This document shows positions 2,579 through 29,178 of a stretch of 32,762 nucleotides of DNA, in pieces. Numbering within the stretch: position 1 is the first letter of the stretch; each line of letters starts with the position of its first letter. A program made the translations under genes and the position numbers. The DNA is from a virus, in IMG/VR virus record IMGVR_UViG_3300027822_000029, positions 1-32,762 of that record; one strand, written 5' to 3'. The notes below the pieces were generated by a model that was not told the DNA's origin, ran no database searches, and worked only from the letters and a program-made list of their open reading frames with translations.

Positions 2579-3033
2579 GTCCATTGGAAAAGATTTTAAA
2601 CCTTGATGGTATTTTGTCTGTATCGTTATCGGCAGAAGTCGCGAAGAATTTGGCTGCAGAAGTTGCGAGGCTTCGAGAGCATTTTGAGGCAATCAAAAAA
2701 GATTATAAAACGATCTCTATATGGAGTGGCGATATCCGGCATCAGATTATGTGTCATGAGGATGGGATGGAGAGGATAAAGGAAATTCTTGAAGGCAGGG
2801 ATGTTCTTGAGGGCAGGGATGTTCTTGAATTGGATAGTCTGCGGAAAGAGAACACTAGGCTTGAAGGTCTGAATGAGAGTTTAGAGTTTCGAATTACAAA
2901 ATTGCGAATGCGTGAAGAGCTTTTTGAAAAGGATTTTGAGTCAATTAGAGAGATGAGTTTCTTTAAAATAAAAAAAGCGTTTAAAGCAGCTTTAGAGAGC
3001 CATAAAGTCCTTTTAAGGGATATTTTTGAATAA
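2575..3033 (+). CDS. Coiled-coil protein of unknown function (152 aa), next to terL
   Basis: Most of the protein is predicted by eye to be coiled coil (VAKNLAAEVARLREHFEAIKK; LRKENTRLEGLNESLEFRITKL). It contains a perfect in-frame duplication of EGRDVL encoded by an 18-bp tandem repeat at 2785-2829. GGAG lies before the ATG, the start overlaps the previous stop, and its own stop shares one base with the terL start. Tight coupling to terL suggests a packaging or DNA-processing partner, but no motif proves this. Confidence 0.6.
   Translation: MSPLEKILNLDGILSVSLSAEVAKNLAAEVARLREHFEAIKKDYKTISIWSGDIRHQIMCHEDGMERIKEILEGRDVLEGRDVLELDSLRKENTRLEGLNESLEFRITKLRMREELFEKDFESIREMSFFKIKKAFKAALESHKVLLRDIFE
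2785..2829 (+). repeat. 18-bp in-frame tandem repeat (2.5 copies)
   Basis: Units ATTCTTGAAGGCAGGGAT and GTTCTTGAGGGCAGGGAT are followed by a half unit. They encode LEGRDV twice inside the coiled-coil gene and keep the frame. This looks like a recent slippage duplication. Confidence 0.8.
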
Positions 3034-4586
3034 TGACAAGAATTGAAACCCATCAATACTACACTAGGATCTTGAAGTCAGCTGAAGAGAAAGGTATAAA
3101 GTGGGAGGCAATGAGAAAATTGGTTCGAGAGGACCGGTTTTTTTTGTTGGTGTATATTTTAAAAAGGAAGGATGCTGATAATGATTGGTGTTATACCCGA
3201 TGCCGCGAGGTTGAAGCTGATCCGAATGAACGGTTAGATTTATGGGCCCGTGAGCATTATAAGAGTACGATTATTACTTATGCTGGTTCTATACAGGAAA
3301 TATCCAAGAATCCTGAGATTACGATAGGGATTTTTTCATTTAACAAATCTATTGCGAGGGCTTTCTTGTCGATGATAAAAGTTGAGATGGAGAAAAATAA
3401 GTTATTACAATGGTTATTTCCGGAAATATTTTGGGATGAACCTATTAGATATGCTCGGAAGTATGGGTTTGCCTGGTCGAAAGAGGCCGGGATTACCGTG
3501 AAACGGAAGACAAATCCGAATGAGAAGACTATTGAGGCTCATGGATTAACTGATGGGCAGCCGACTTCAAAGCATTTTATGTTGATGATTTATAATGATG
3601 TTGTAACTGATTCATCTGTATTGACTACTGAGATGATCCTGAAGACAACTTCAGCCTGGGAGCTATCTCAGTCCTTAGGACGAGATGGTGGTCATCAGTG
3701 GTATGAGGGGACTATATATCACCATGCGGAGACCTATTCAGAGATAATTAAGAAGGGAGTTATTAAGCCGCGGTTCTATCCAGCGACAGATGATGGTACT
3801 ATTACCGGAAATCCGGTTTTTATGACCCGGGAAGCGCTTGCTGTTAAGAGGAAAAATCAAGGGCCGTATACTTTTGCTTGTCAGATGTTGTTAAATCCAT
3901 CACATGAGGGGCAGCAGGGGTTTGATAAACTCTGGATAAAGACCTGGAATGCCAATAATTTCTCTAATTTAAACATAGTAATCCTGGTTGATCCAGCTTC
4001 AAAGAAGAAAAAGAAGTCAGATTACACTGTAATGTGGGTAATTGGTAAGGGGGCTGATAAGAATTACTATGTAATTGATGTAGTTCGTGATAAAATGAAT
4101 TTAACGCAGCGCTCTAAGAAGCTGATGTTGTTACATGAGCGGTATTCTAACCATTCTATCGACCAAATACAGGTAGGATATGAAGAATATGGGATGCAGT
4201 CAGATGTTGAACATATCGAAGGGGAGATGGATCGGGCCAATTATAGGTTTAATATAACCAGATTGGGTGGAAAGCTTGGGAAAATAGACAGGATTTTGCG
4301 TCTTGTGCCGGTATTTGAGCAGGGGAGAATCTTTTTCCCTAAAAAAGTCTCCTATGTAAATTGGGAGGGGAAATATGTAGACGCTATAGAAGAGTTTGTA
4401 GACGAAGAGTTTATTCCTTTTCCGTTTGGAGGGCATGACGATATGCTTGATGGCCTTGCAAGATTGCTTGATGATGATATATACCAACCATTCCCTACTG
4501 GCAAAAAGCCTTTCAGCGACAAGATTGTTGACATCGACGAATCCATAGAGCATGATGAAAAGGATTGGAGTCCTTATGAAGGTTGA
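3033..4586 (+). CDS. terL: Terminase large subunit (packaging ATPase/nuclease, 517 aa)
   Basis: This is the DNA-packaging motor: it cuts concatemeric DNA and pumps it through the portal using ATP. The ATPase half shows a degenerate Walker A, AREHYKST (about 72-79), of the kind seen in T7-like terminases, and a Walker B strand ending in ND (HFMLMIYNDVV, about 182-191). The nuclease half shows the three acidic clusters expected of an RNase H-like fold: D320 in ILVDPAS with D330, E384/E385 in GYEEYG, and HDD at 468-470 in GGHDDMLDGLARL. Length is normal for the family. The start codon overlaps the previous stop by one base, and the next small gene starts inside its 3' end. Confidence 0.93.
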   Translation: MTRIETHQYYTRILKSAEEKGIKWEAMRKLVREDRFFLLVYILKRKDADNDWCYTRCREVEADPNERLDLWAREHYKSTIITYAGSIQEISKNPEITIGIFSFNKSIARAFLSMIKVEMEKNKLLQWLFPEIFWDEPIRYARKYGFAWSKEAGITVKRKTNPNEKTIEAHGLTDGQPTSKHFMLMIYNDVVTDSSVLTTEMILKTTSAWELSQSLGRDGGHQWYEGTIYHHAETYSEIIKKGVIKPRFYPATDDGTITGNPVFMTREALAVKRKNQGPYTFACQMLLNPSHEGQQGFDKLWIKTWNANNFSNLNIVILVDPASKKKKKSDYTVMWVIGKGADKNYYVIDVVRDKMNLTQRSKKLMLLHERYSNHSIDQIQVGYEEYGMQSDVEHIEGEMDRANYRFNITRLGGKLGKIDRILRLVPVFEQGRIFFPKKVSYVNWEGKYVDAIEEFVDEEFIPFPFGGHDDMLDGLARLLDDDIYQPFPTGKKPFSDKIVDIDESIEHDEKDWSPYEG

Positions 4587-4734
4587 AAAGATTCAGAACC
4601 TGAAGATTGCGAGGATCTTCAAAGAGTTCGAGAAGTTAAACGATCGTTTACAGAATGGGCTTACGCCATTATCTGTAAAAGAACTCAAGGAGTATATAAT
4701 CGAGTTGGAGGGGAAGAATGGGAGAATGGACTAA
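4576..4734 (+). CDS. Small helical protein between terL and the PGBD gene (52 aa)
   Basis: The ATG at 4576 has GGAG five bases upstream and lies inside the 3' end of terL; an in-frame ATG at 4552 has no such site. The product (MKVEKIQNLK to EGKNGRMD) is one or two charged helices with no known motif. It overlaps the next gene by 17 bases. Tiny proteins at this place are common in podovirus genomes and are mostly unassigned. Confidence 0.5.
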   Translation: MKVEKIQNLKIARIFKEFEKLNDRLQNGLTPLSVKELKEYIIELEGKNGRMD

Positions 4735-5254
4735 TGAGAAACAAGCGGAGATAGTTAAGGCTATAGACCGGGTTATAGAAAAAGGACAATATGCTAATCC
4801 AAACAAGAAAAAGAAAGATGGTCTGGTAGCCCGGATTAAAGGAATGTTTTCTCCTGACCAGGCTGATTTGCCTACAGTTGAAGAAGCTGTTGATGCAGAA
4901 ATGCGCCAGTGGAAGCAAGAAAGGTATGATGAAAAGACATTGGCCGCAGAAGAATCTAAGAAGGAGCCGGAGACGCTTGCAGCCAGCAATGGAGAAGAAG
5001 TTCAAGGTTCTGTTGAGCAGCCGGAAGGCCGGCAGATGGAGTATGCAGCCGCTAGTGATCATCGCACAGACTTTGAGGCAGACAAAATAAAGAAAGTTCA
5101 AGAAGGTCTTATTGCTGGTGGATATGATGTTGATAAAGCTACTGGTGTTTTGGATGAAAAGACAATGAGTGCTGTTAAAATTATTCAGAGAATGTTTGGG
5201 CAAGAGGTCACTGGAATGATTGATGATAATTTATATGGGTTGTTTGACAGATGA
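4718..5254 (+). CDS. Protein with C-terminal peptidoglycan-binding domain (178 aa)
   Basis: Residues about 121-176 match the PG_binding_1 pattern: a helix beginning IKKVQEGLIAGGYDVD, then G.LDEKTMSAVKIIQRMFG, then VTGMIDDNLYGLF. Known members bind the bacterial wall in lytic enzymes. No lytic domain is fused here. The first 120 residues are charged and low in complexity, with basic KKKKDGLVARIKGMF near 31-44. The gene lies between the terminase and portal genes and overlaps the portal start by four bases. It may be a virion-carried wall-anchoring factor or a regulator of a partner lysin. The domain call is good; the role is inferred. Confidence 0.72.
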   Translation: MGEWTNEKQAEIVKAIDRVIEKGQYANPNKKKKDGLVARIKGMFSPDQADLPTVEEAVDAEMRQWKQERYDEKTLAAEESKKEPETLAASNGEEVQGSVEQPEGRQMEYAAASDHRTDFEADKIKKVQEGLIAGGYDVDKATGVLDEKTMSAVKIIQRMFGQEVTGMIDDNLYGLFDR

Positions 5255-23700: not shown

Positions 23701-23865
23701 AATGCAATTATTCCAACAGCTATACATGAGATAGCTGGAAGAATGATTTCTGTTGTTTCAAAAGTTGTAACAGGAATGACCATAAATGCAACGGTTTATG
23801 ATGGGTCAAACGACACAACAGGAAGTGATGCGTATTGGACAGCCACTGGCGAATGGAGAGATTAG
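20743..23865 (+). CDS. Tail fibre with T7 gp17-like N-terminus (1040 aa)
   Basis: Residues 1-130 match the T7 tail-fibre attachment domain (IISSGVTEYSYSFKILKEETLKVTHFD, DYSIEGVGLDAGVVVLT, then FPATALTYLTDRITMMLQQINDRVERSIQAP). A collar-like piece (EQADYPDLYSAIGHRW) lies near 407-425, and a repeated YPEL/HNLGFNISDLDIQIVFSSDG-type fragment near 665-735. The last 130 residues resemble the gp53-like fibre tip (VVTFPIPFHTVNAIIPTAIH to YWTATGEWRD). It binds the host surface. There is no obvious depolymerase motif. It follows the giant ejection protein with no gap. Confidence 0.85.
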   Translation: MSVGTELAIKNTIISSGVTEYSYSFKILKEETLKVTHFDIDGNGTVLVNPTDYSIEGVGLDAGVVVLTSAFTDGTLSMERIETYTTETIIKEGSRFPATALTYLTDRITMMLQQINDRVERSIQAPINEDYINFTFPSLEQRRNTYLTFDENGALQVEDGATPDAYFGNYPFNKGDIIQYYTEALGGRFYISLQTDNQGHIPSENLGVWWDEYSFAAEGGLPNYLDNRFAAITADSGFTVTAPNSTTPIKEGGDILLEKDAADRSGTGMYWTVDISETDLSSKLQVSFNLKSSDADKLSVKVMDTDADPDLTLYDEVVEDVAEYNSVSEIYSFNRIFDTNQNNTLKVLIYCNSTSALVASWNLSDVSLGAPFYYTAPSTGDKAGTYKWWGGIDLPDTAHLYASGPAVEQADYPDLYSAIGHRWNEERQNAGWADVSSGTTFYPGPSSQNYLREALPPIEFTDSEVDFAGDRLDLTGLIDTTMLEALRNGMPMQLKLVSGTLPTGLSEQTYYVATYVSGLVRFFTTEAEAIAETPYVSISDAGSGTFQLIQVGGYLDDALEAHTHGTSPSSTGVGVIQAGSQGETSTPTIKTGDVSEATTSNETRGQTAYLTLIVRAIDVRSVELMKLQTNREDAGEKFDSYKAPDANGLGKYSSLVFDSSFTHNWSDYPELLAIGATDLAMYITDNGDGTFNMRDLSYDTGWVNRTDWTDKQITIAHNLGFNISDLDIQIVFSSDGTDGNAVKEGIFGRVYASATPINQHLGVSYFEINTNSLTLQTAVDGVRFIGAAGNEIVLGSSTSYYYRIIVTRKDAPQEGTYAYLRTKSLSQVILAEINSQDGYNGSVYRPTVQDISAADKTTSLDQFLSTGSSPKLDGWRIKVTWKDGDATYAHKFTSSLNLANEYVDLPAGDNSATFAWCGYGSGGLTLVKDEVNSQWIVETEGCFDKGENVGGASFSQWVNRVLMNKGTQAVSSSSEVVTFPIPFHTVNAIIPTAIHEIAGRMISVVSKVVTGMTINATVYDGSNDTTGSDAYWTATGEWRD

Positions 23866-23882
23866 ATAAAAGGAGGCCAAAA

Positions 23883-24638
23883 ATGGCAAAACCAAAAAGA
23901 GATGAAAGGGGGTGTTTTATAAAAGGGGCCGTTCCTGCAAATAAAATAATACTTAATAAACAGATGTTACAGAATTTATATAAAGTTTATGGGTCGGTTA
24001 TGATAGCCAGAAAATTAAAAGTGAGCCAACAAATTGTATTAAGATGTTTACATGAATATAAGATCCCTATAAAGCCATCGCCGGAAAAATTACCAGCTTA
24101 TCATATTGCTGCCTTGCACGTATCAAAAACAAAACCCGCTTGGAATAAAGGGAAAACAAAAAAAACGAACGCAACTTTATTGCAAATGTCCAAAAAATTA
24201 GAAGGAAGTAATAATAAAGCTTGGAAAGCAGAATTACATACTGATGAAAAAATATTATGCAAATGTGGCTGCGGAGAAGTAATAGATAAATATGATAAAA
24301 AAGGGAGGCTTCGATATTATAAAAAGGGACATTGTAATGCAGGATGGTTTACAACAGAAAATATTAGCGGAGAAAATAATTATGCCTGGAAAGGCGGGGT
24401 GTCCTCTAAAGAGGAAACAGTAAGAGCCTCAAAGCAATATAAGCAATGGAGACTTTCTGTCTATAAACGAGATCATTACATATGCCAAAGCTGTGGTAGT
24501 AAAAAAGAAATTATTGCACATCATATAAAATATTTTAATGCATATCCAGAATTAAGATTTAACATAGATAATGGGATAACTTTATGTAGAAGTTGTCATC
24601 TAAAACTACATCAAAAGGAGAAAGAAAATGCCAAATAA
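23883..24638 (+). CDS. HNH homing-type endonuclease (251 aa)
   Basis: AGGAGG lies before the ATG at 23883. An N-terminal helix-turn-helix (VMIARKLKVSQQIVLRCLHEYKIP, 39-62) is followed by NUMOD3-like copies (KPAWNKGKTKK near 84, GSNNKAW near 108, GENNYAWKGG near 163) and a CKCGCG zinc site at 126-131. The C-terminal HNH domain has C201/C204, AHHI at 212-215, FNIDNG at 226-231, CRSC at 235-238 and a final H243. All catalytic positions are present. It is freestanding, between the fibre and small accessory genes, and is typical of a selfish endonuclease. It is rich in Lys and AT-rich compared with its neighbours, which suggests separate arrival. Confidence 0.9.
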   Translation: MAKPKRDERGCFIKGAVPANKIILNKQMLQNLYKVYGSVMIARKLKVSQQIVLRCLHEYKIPIKPSPEKLPAYHIAALHVSKTKPAWNKGKTKKTNATLLQMSKKLEGSNNKAWKAELHTDEKILCKCGCGEVIDKYDKKGRLRYYKKGHCNAGWFTTENISGENNYAWKGGVSSKEETVRASKQYKQWRLSVYKRDHYICQSCGSKKEIIAHHIKYFNAYPELRFNIDNGITLCRSCHLKLHQKEKENAK

Positions 24639-24750
24639 AAATGGGAAAGGGCCACGAAAACAAAGTCCAAGACCGAGTGTTAAAAAAGGAGGATTAGGCA
24701 GAGGCGGCTGCAAGACTACTAGAAAAACCGGTAGAGGAAGAAAAAAATGA
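24628..24750 (+). CDS. Very small basic protein (40 aa)
   Basis: The frame MPNKNGKGPRKQSPRPSVKK ... KTGRGRKK has AAGGAG before its ATG. It overlaps the HNH stop by 11 bases and the next start by four (ATGA), so it sits in a coupled chain. It is almost all Lys, Arg, Gly and Pro. The opening MPNKNGKGP and TGRGR ending recall short Gly/Arg phage and bacterial peptides of the MP..DGTGP...GPMTGRG type, function unknown. It may bind nucleic acid. Confidence 0.55.
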   Translation: MPNKNGKGPRKQSPRPSVKKGGLGRGGCKTTRKTGRGRKK

Positions 24751-25292
24751 GGACACCCTACAATGATGATCACTCATTAATCGGGGTTGAGGGGGATTGG
24801 AAAGTCAAATACGACACGTGTGTCGTATTTGTTAAAGCCACAAATAGTAAAGAAGATTGGCTTTCAAATCTCATAGCTATACCATTCCCTTTACAGTTGG
24901 TTGGAAAACTTGGCTGGTGTCATCTTGGATATAGAGGCTATGCCTATTGGTTAACCGGGATGATTCATACTATCCTAAGCAGCCGGCCAGAGGTCACAAA
25001 GCTTGTTGTTGTTGGTTATTCAATGGGTGGAGGTATTGCTCAAATGGTGGGGGTACTTGCTGACGAGTGGATTGATGATGTTACAACCAAGATTGTCAGT
25101 ATTGATGGCCCGCGAACAACTTCTAGGCTGCCGAAGAATATAAAACTTCTCAGGAATAGAGGCTCTCTTGTGGCTGACATCCCCCCTTGGTTTAAGAAAG
25201 CTCCTGAAACTGTTTTATCAACTACCTGTCGGCCATTCTGGAAAGCCCATAAAGATTATGATATTGAGGCAATAATAAAAAATGAAGAGTAG
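24747..25292 (+). CDS. Lipase class 3-like alpha/beta hydrolase (181 aa)
   Basis: Segments follow the class 3 lipase order: CVVFVKATNSKEDWLSNL (25-42, compare VVAFRGT.S..DW..DL), the nucleophile elbow VVVGYSMGGGIAQM with Ser92, a strand ending IDGPRT (119-124), DIPPW with Asp144, and His168 in KAHKDYD. A complete Ser-Asp-His triad is therefore visible. Lipases and esterases of this fold cleave ester bonds. In a tail-accessory region it could de-esterify surface lipids or polysaccharides. Codons 21-28 are exactly the 24-bp palindrome found elsewhere in the genome. It has no signal peptide. It overlaps both neighbours by a few bases. Confidence 0.7.
   Translation: MRTPYNDDHSLIGVEGDWKVKYDTCVVFVKATNSKEDWLSNLIAIPFPLQLVGKLGWCHLGYRGYAYWLTGMIHTILSSRPEVTKLVVVGYSMGGGIAQMVGVLADEWIDDVTTKIVSIDGPRTTSRLPKNIKLLRNRGSLVADIPPWFKKAPETVLSTTCRPFWKAHKDYDIEAIIKNEE
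24807..24830. repeat. AAATACGACAC palindrome inside the lipase-like gene
   Basis: Arms AAATACGACAC and GTGTCGTATTT surround GT, and one further C-G pair extends the dyad. Relative to the copies at 1182 and 9395 the centre is inverted (GT rather than AC), so it is the same sequence on the other strand. It covers codons 21-28 in frame and encodes KYDTCVVF, part of a predicted conserved strand. Confidence 0.85.
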
Positions 25293-28277: not shown

Positions 28278-28721
28278 ATGAGTGATCATATTGATTTTAA
28301 CAACGAGATGATTCGGGAGCTTGAGGCGGTGAAAAACAGTATCGACAGCATGTCTACTACGTTTAAGGAGCGAATGAGTTCATTAGAAGATCGTATTGAA
28401 TCAAGTATAGAGATAACCAAAGGTCAGATGAAAGGAAAGTATGAACTTTTAGAGCAGGAACTTAATGGCCAAGGGAAAAGGTTTGATGATAAAGTCGCTA
28501 TAAATGAAACAAGACTTCAGGTAGTAGAGACTTCTGAATCTGAATGCCCAGAAAGAAGAGCAAAAATCCATGAGCGAATTGATAAACTTGAGGATGGAAA
28601 GGTCCAAGAGAATCTTTTAAGTATCATTACTCTTGGAACATATATGAAGATAACTTGGGGAATTCTTTGTGGTGTTGGTGCTGCGGTAGCATGGACAATT
28701 ATTGCACAGGTGGCGGGGTAA
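28278..28721 (+). CDS. Coiled-coil protein with C-terminal membrane anchor, XhlA/holin-like (147 aa)
   Basis: Residues 1-115 are a long coiled coil (MIRELEAVKNSIDSMSTTFKERMSSLEDRIESSIEI and later ERIDKLEDGK). A single membrane segment near 125-145 (ITWGILCGVGAAVAWTIIAQ) ends the protein. This layout is like XhlA-type lysis proteins and other phage membrane accessory proteins. The lysin follows after five bases. It is likely a holin partner or spanin-like factor; orientation in the membrane cannot be read. Confidence 0.6.
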   Translation: MSDHIDFNNEMIRELEAVKNSIDSMSTTFKERMSSLEDRIESSIEITKGQMKGKYELLEQELNGQGKRFDDKVAINETRLQVVETSESECPERRAKIHERIDKLEDGKVQENLLSIITLGTYMKITWGILCGVGAAVAWTIIAQVAG

Positions 28722-28725
28722 TAAA

Positions 28726-29178
28726 ATGATGGTTACACAAATGTTCGCTCATCTTGAAGAGCGTCCAGATTTTGAAATAGGGGATATTTTAACTAATAGA
28801 AAGTTAATAGGACGAATGGGAAGCACAGGCGTTTCTACTGCAGCGCATATCCATATGGGGAATGCTCTAGGTGTATATAAATTTCCATGGACATTGAAAC
28901 AATGTGAAGATGGCGATATAATTCCTGTCCCAAGAGAACTGAATTATTTTTTGGATGAATATCTTTTTCAGGCCCCACTAAAAATAACTACATATTACTG
29001 TGATCCAAAATATCAGGAACATTGGGAGAAGGTCCATTATGGTTATGATGTTTCTACTAAAAAGTCTTGGCCTTGGGAGTTTTATTGGAATAGAAGTAAG
29101 ACAGGATATGTAATGTTTAATAATTGGTATGATGCATATGGAAATGTAATATTGATTTCATATGATACAAAGGAGTAA
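28726..29178 (+). CDS. M23-type peptidase with circularly permuted motif order (150 aa)
   Basis: The N-terminal 45 residues match the C-terminal half of an M23 metallopeptidase: MFAHL (compare WYMHL), IGD.LTNRKLIGRMGSTGVSTAAHIHMG with HxH at 41-43. The C-terminal 70 residues match the N-terminal half: FQAPLKITTYYCDP, then VHYGYDVS with HxxxD at 104-108, then KTGYVMFNNW..AYGNVILISYD. All zinc-ligand motifs are present but in reverse order. The frame is closed by a stop at 28687, so no normal N-terminus was missed. It would cleave peptidoglycan cross-bridges or stems as the endolysin between two membrane proteins. It has no signal peptide. Confidence 0.72.
   Translation: MMVTQMFAHLEERPDFEIGDILTNRKLIGRMGSTGVSTAAHIHMGNALGVYKFPWTLKQCEDGDIIPVPRELNYFLDEYLFQAPLKITTYYCDPKYQEHWEKVHYGYDVSTKKSWPWEFYWNRSKTGYVMFNNWYDAYGNVILISYDTKE

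Follow-up and report, generated by a model that had tools for sequence, protein, structure and literature searches.

A 150-residue protein (P0001) encoded by a viral contig is very likely a circularly permuted M23 zinc endopeptidase of the LytM/lysostaphin type, acting as a phage endolysin. M23 is among the most studied families of peptidoglycan hydrolases and a source of enzybiotics, and permuted members may reveal overlooked lysins and virion hydrolases. The gene lies in a window of 32,762 nt (the whole stretch of DNA analysed, positions 1 to 32,762 of IMG/VR record IMGVR_UViG_3300027822_000029). The observations that carry this assignment are the order and completeness of the M23 motifs, the statistical match of both halves of the protein to the family, the genomic setting of the gene, and the occurrence of natural permuted relatives in other phages.

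Motif order and gene structure of P0001

P0001 does not follow the usual M23 chain order HxGxD - GN.V.I - Y.HL - HxH and runs Y.HL - HxH - HxGxD - GN.V.I instead, so that FAHL and GSTGVSTAAHIH, which belong to the usual C-terminal half of the domain, precede HYGYD and YGNVILI of the usual N-terminal half. The gene encodes MMVTQMFAHLEERPDFEIGDILTNRKLIGRMGSTGVSTAAHIHMG, then a linker, then LKITTYYCDPKYQEHWEKVHYGYDV and TGYVMFNNWYDAYGNVILISYDTKE; the first residues of the protein are MFAHL and the last ISYDTKE. The M23 residue set is whole, with HxGxD (the zinc His and Asp) represented by H104 and D108 in HYGYD, HxH (catalytic and zinc His) by H41 and H43 in HIH, and the catalytic His of Y.HL by H9 in FAHL, and with YGNVILISYD following HYGYD. 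By sequence, P0001 is a circular permutant of M23, its new ends placed in the turn between the GN.V.I and Y.HL strands.

On re-reading the sequence, the open reading frame, its coordinates and the motif positions given in the original prediction were all recovered, as were the zinc ligands that it had declared present (H43, H104 and D108, alongside H9 and H41). It had also held that a normal N-terminus is ruled out by an in-frame stop at 28687, and this stop was confirmed as a TAG. Because the frame opens only after this codon, and TTG at 28702 (+8 aa) is the sole alternative start upstream, an ordinary N-terminal M23 half hidden ahead of P0001 is excluded.

In the proposed mechanism, the chain would begin in the hairpin loop between the GN.V.I and Y.HL strands, pass from Y.HL to HxH, cross the linker of roughly 40 residues between the old ends, and continue through HxGxD to GN.V.I. 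The two halves would come together as a single M23 domain, with zinc bound by H104, D108 and H43 and catalysis assisted by H9 and H41. After holin action, the enzyme would cut the peptide cross-links of the host wall. The joint active site, zinc binding, peptidoglycan cleavage and lysis role are inferred.

Table 1. Parts of P0001 and the genes on either side of it (positions in the window).
Feature	Position	Strand	Basis
P0001 (150 aa), putative M23 peptidase in circularly permuted form; probable endolysin	28726..29178	+	ORF, motifs, profiles and AlphaFold core
P0001 residues 1-46, usual C-terminal half of M23: FAHL strand, EIGDILTNRKLIG hairpin, GSTGVSTAAHIHMG; H9, H41, H43	28726..28863	+	40.7 bits with the nC profile (residues 5-44); Pfam positions 46-85
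P0001 residues 47-85, linker between old C and N ends	28864..28980	+	low AlphaFold confidence over most of 52-90
P0001 residues 86-147, usual N-terminal half of M23: ITTYY strand, HYGYD (H104, D108), GYVMF, YGNVILISYD	28981..29166	+	nN profile 15.9 bits
Probable holin: coiled coil and C-terminal transmembrane helix, holin/hemolysin (XhlA)-like	28278..28721	+	phrog_1193 hemolysin 5.5e-4, phrog_1296 holin 0.026; weak
Membrane protein directly downstream of P0001	29182..29718	+	phrog_1544, unknown function

Profile matches and exchange of the halves in silico

With P0001 as encoded, the Pfam M23 profile (PF01551) gave two stretches (28.6 bits, 1.6e-6), the better of which placed residues 4-44 onto profile positions 46-85; the score misses the curated cut-off of 28.7 bits by 0.1 bit. 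Residues 1-86 alone scored 20.6 bits with this profile, and no Pfam M23 match was reported for the second half alone. When the halves were swapped in silico, a single Pfam M23 stretch was obtained (37.5 bits, E 2.8e-9), and phmmer aligned the swapped protein, with order preserved, to solved M23 structures that included lysostaphin, LytM and TagE.

Half profiles (nC and nN) were built from ordinary phage M23 halves collected in this analysis. Residues 1-60 scored 40.7 bits with the C-terminal-half profile, and residues 86-150 scored 15.9 bits with that of the N-terminal half; neither score was reached by any of 5000 shuffles. The latter score was also reached by none of 5000 shuffles in which the H, G and D of HxGxD were held fixed. 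Judged by these scores, the M23 resemblance of P0001 exceeds chance; the match of residues 86-150 is nonetheless modest, and is counted against the main reading. Searches of viral contigs, genome contigs and phage and plasmid records for whole-protein homologues of P0001 gave only the C-half of M23 or no match. Narrow DNA patterns (codons, spacing) for a P0001-like order also gave no match, by which absence is not shown.

Predicted structure

AlphaFold2 failed on P0001 when run without relatives (single sequence, pLDDT 37.6). With an alignment (A3) of 27 permuted domains from other phages (see below) and the halves of ordinary M23 domains, the model reached a pLDDT of 71.5 and a pTM of 0.68, with values of 80-93 over residues 1-50, 72-89 over residues 101-150, and mostly below 50 in the linker (52-90). 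As A3 includes M23 halves, the model does not test the fold of either half independently, and just 27 rows couple both halves.

Searches with the model by Foldseek (PDB, BFVD) and VIA-align returned no M23 chain. These aligners compare structures along chain order, and the M23 fold is therefore neither confirmed nor refuted by them. Of the structural check that had been proposed for P0001, the prediction step gave a confident core. The top VIA-align rows were RNA polymerase domains (Z 3.5, weak). One study aligned a peptidase M23 protein with HABAS domains of RNA polymerase and other proteins, and described three HABAS topologies that circular permutation relates to one another (PMC11515920). 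HABAS domains are not peptidases, and that study claims no permuted M23 enzymes; the RNA polymerase rows and the HABAS topologies are at most consistent with a permuted fold of P0001.

Permuted M23 domains in other phages

When viral contigs were searched with a DNA pattern of the M23 motif IGx[VIM]GxTGxxT[AG]xHxH, 120 loci were identified, most of them in the ordinary order, with HxGxD 64-93 residues upstream of the motif. Five loci (L039, L055, L062, L091 and L109) are permuted: they have no HxGxD upstream, and carry one 38-49 residues downstream, followed by G[YF]GN and an HL motif (e.g., L[AG]HL). A profile of these five found 72 permuted loci among the best 80 on viral contigs (counted by reading). 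From these, 27 non-redundant permuted domains were taken at about 90% similarity, the first five included. Among the best 80 loci that the permuted profile found in 84,980 prokaryote genomes, none was credibly permuted, within the limits of the pattern.

Several kinds of protein carry the permuted domain: (i) large proteins of virion type (L109, L039 and L137, among others); (ii) small proteins that stand alone, start with MAGIxFLGxVGSTG and end near GHM, with a capsid-like gene in the vicinity of one of them; (iii) tape-measure-like proteins with HLD for HxH, including the tape measure of Acinetobacter Vieuvirus R3177 (YP_009593409.1); and (iv) cyanophage virion proteins (S-TIM5, AEZ65701.1; S-TIM54, UYE97289.1). 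A protein of the isolate S-EIV1 (AHV82231.1), annotated 'peptidase M23 family', belongs to kind (ii) and has the permuted order, while further Acinetobacter tape measures, as well as Moraxella tail proteins, gave matches of kind (iii). In these four named phages (S-TIM5, S-TIM54, S-EIV1 and R3177) the annotation of the proteins goes no further than tape measure, virion protein or M23. The HLD variant, which puts Asp at the third zinc-ligand position, was seen in L157, L158, L166, L176, L181, L193 and L204, and in the R3177 tape measure (L128). The S-TIM5 virion protein (L129) also has a Phage_lysozyme2 domain (residues 866-993, 1.9e-22), which places two wall hydrolases in one protein.

A Pfam scan of five whole records of phages with such domains gave half-matches only, in swapped order where both halves were seen, and none of the five was over the cut-off; permuted domains that had been trimmed out were over it in some cases. 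Separate half-matches below the Pfam cut-off make a permuted M23 easy to miss in current annotation, and may explain why these domains have gone unnoticed so far. Among the open papers covered, none was found that describes natural circular permutants of M23. The original prediction had known of no family of permuted M23 lysins, and this holds for the literature covered; the order itself is not unique to P0001, since M23 domains with a break at a neighbouring loop occur in many phages. Permuted M23 domains are thus present in many phages, mostly in tail or virion proteins, and are apparently undescribed. Together with the profile statistics and the half-swap test, these natural relatives with the same overall order support the reading of P0001 as a permutant.

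Break site and origin of the permutation

P0001 shares with the M23 family (PF01551; lysostaphin, LytM, TagE) the motifs HxGxD, GN.V.I, Y.HL and HxH, and matches it in order after the half swap; it differs in that the halves are reversed in the chain, which now starts and finishes in the loop ahead of Y.HL, while a linker of about 40 aa bridges the former ends. It meets the criterion of the permuted set (HxH before HxGxD in one domain, without HxGxD upstream), and the profile of the 27 permuted domains matched it in one stretch (positions 3-111 of 127, 29.4 bits). Like P0001, the phage permuted M23s (S-TIM5, S-TIM54, S-EIV1, R3177 and many IMG/VR contigs) have HxH, or HLD in several cases, before HxGxD, but they are mostly parts of large virion proteins and have L[AG]HL as the last motif, the break falling after Y.HL. 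The break of P0001, before Y.HL, is one strand earlier than in all of them. Circularly permuted NlpC/P60 peptidases (YaeF/LRAT-like) have been described (PMC6403190); these are, like P0001, natural circular permutants of a peptidoglycan peptidase fold, but the fold is an unrelated one, that of a cysteine peptidase.

A tree was inferred from the 64 columns shared by the domains, the permuted set having been picked by similarity. The permuted domains group together strongly on these columns, with 2 changes where shuffling gives 20.7, and the rows nearest to P0001 are all permuted, although its own branch is very long (2.79 changes per column). One clade of permuted domains including P0001 was neither shown nor rejected (AU p 0.40), and a tree on these columns cannot resolve the origin of the permutation. 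On balance, an undescribed class of M23 domains in circularly permuted form, with at least two break sites, seems to be widespread in phages; its members, found in tape measures, in virion hydrolases and, here, in a stand-alone endolysin, may stem from one ancient duplication-and-trimming event that is still sliding the domain ends. It is quite conceivable, if somewhat doubtful, that the break in P0001 had an origin separate from that of the other permuted M23s and did not come about by end-sliding of one ancestral permuted domain. The displaced break would fit such an origin, as would the linker, which has no sequence similarity to those of the other permuted domains; the clustering on shared columns, the permuted nearest rows and the unrejected single clade speak against it, although their support is weak given the long branch and a set chosen by similarity.

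An extra M23 piece resembling Y.HL/VKxGD was seen upstream of the permuted domain in the S-TIM5 protein (L129, residues 434-457, 14.4 bits) and in the ORF of L055 (residues 130-149, 8.1 bits). These pieces are possibly, by inference, remnants of a tandem duplication, such an overlap being expected from permutation by duplication. With two break sites and cyanophage proteins that carry an extra M23-like piece upstream, permutation by duplication becomes testable on real sequences, and natural permutants show which loops are able to hold chain ends, a direct test of M23 folding and tolerance.

Gene neighbourhood and probable lysis role

P0001 is a stand-alone gene following the tail genes, with the holin-like gene upstream and the membrane-protein gene downstream (Table 1). 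Two distant relatives of the downstream membrane protein (L006 and L007) are each immediately preceded by an M15-like peptidase, assigned from motifs by eye and without a profile. Around P0001, the scanned neighbourhood held nothing else that was recognised as a candidate lysin. Because of the holin-like neighbour and the M15-like peptidases in the equivalent slot, P0001 is probably a stand-alone endolysin; the lysin role put forward originally is backed to this extent, but it is inferred and remains without proof.

Since most permuted relatives are virion proteins and lie outside lysis cassettes, the main rival is that P0001 is a virion-associated (entry) hydrolase, the permuted M23 serving to open the wall when DNA is injected. 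Nearly all of the relatives do lie in large virion or tape-measure proteins, or in small genes near capsid genes, whereas P0001 is a 150-aa gene on its own between holin-like and membrane-protein genes, after the tail genes; as L006 and L007 carry M15-like peptidases at the equivalent position, and no competing lysin was recognised in the neighbourhood scanned, an entry role is unlikely.

Two other readings concern the fold. The 60 residues from H43 to H104 and the low predicted confidence of the linker would allow the halves to complement between two chains, as a domain-swapped dimer, and not within one; this is very improbable, as there are permuted relatives in which HxH and HxGxD are just 37-45 residues apart, so that swapping has less room, and the core of the monomer model is confident. 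There is very little reason, finally, to regard P0001 as lacking a functional fold, whether as a degenerate remnant (two M23 halves left by the decay of tandem copies) or through misassembly. Its branch is long, it has no close homologue and a single metagenomic contig covers it, but its frame is open with a start and a stop, all ligand and catalytic residues are kept, the break sits in a hairpin loop, and independent natural permuted domains occur in many contigs and named phages. The permuted endolysin remains the preferred reading of P0001.

A search of viral contigs with the terminase (window 3033-4586) matched only four. An identical terminase is encoded in contig IMGVR_UViG_3300001750_000045 (12.3 kb), and the others are 49-54% identical; none of the four, this contig included, covers the lysin region. 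As judged from these matches, the source phage is of a little-sampled, podovirus-like lineage. Between its terminase and portal genes lies one (window 4718-5254) whose product carries a PG_binding_1 domain at the C-terminus (9e-10). A lipase/PGAP1-like alpha/beta hydrolase (window 24747-25292; PF07819 5.4e-7, PF01764 6.8e-6) is encoded ahead of the lysis region, separated from it by a few genes. Between this lipase-like gene and a tail-fibre-like gene lies another (window 23835-24638) with an HNH-like C-terminus (YICQSCGSKKEIIAHHI), the start of which overlaps the preceding gene.
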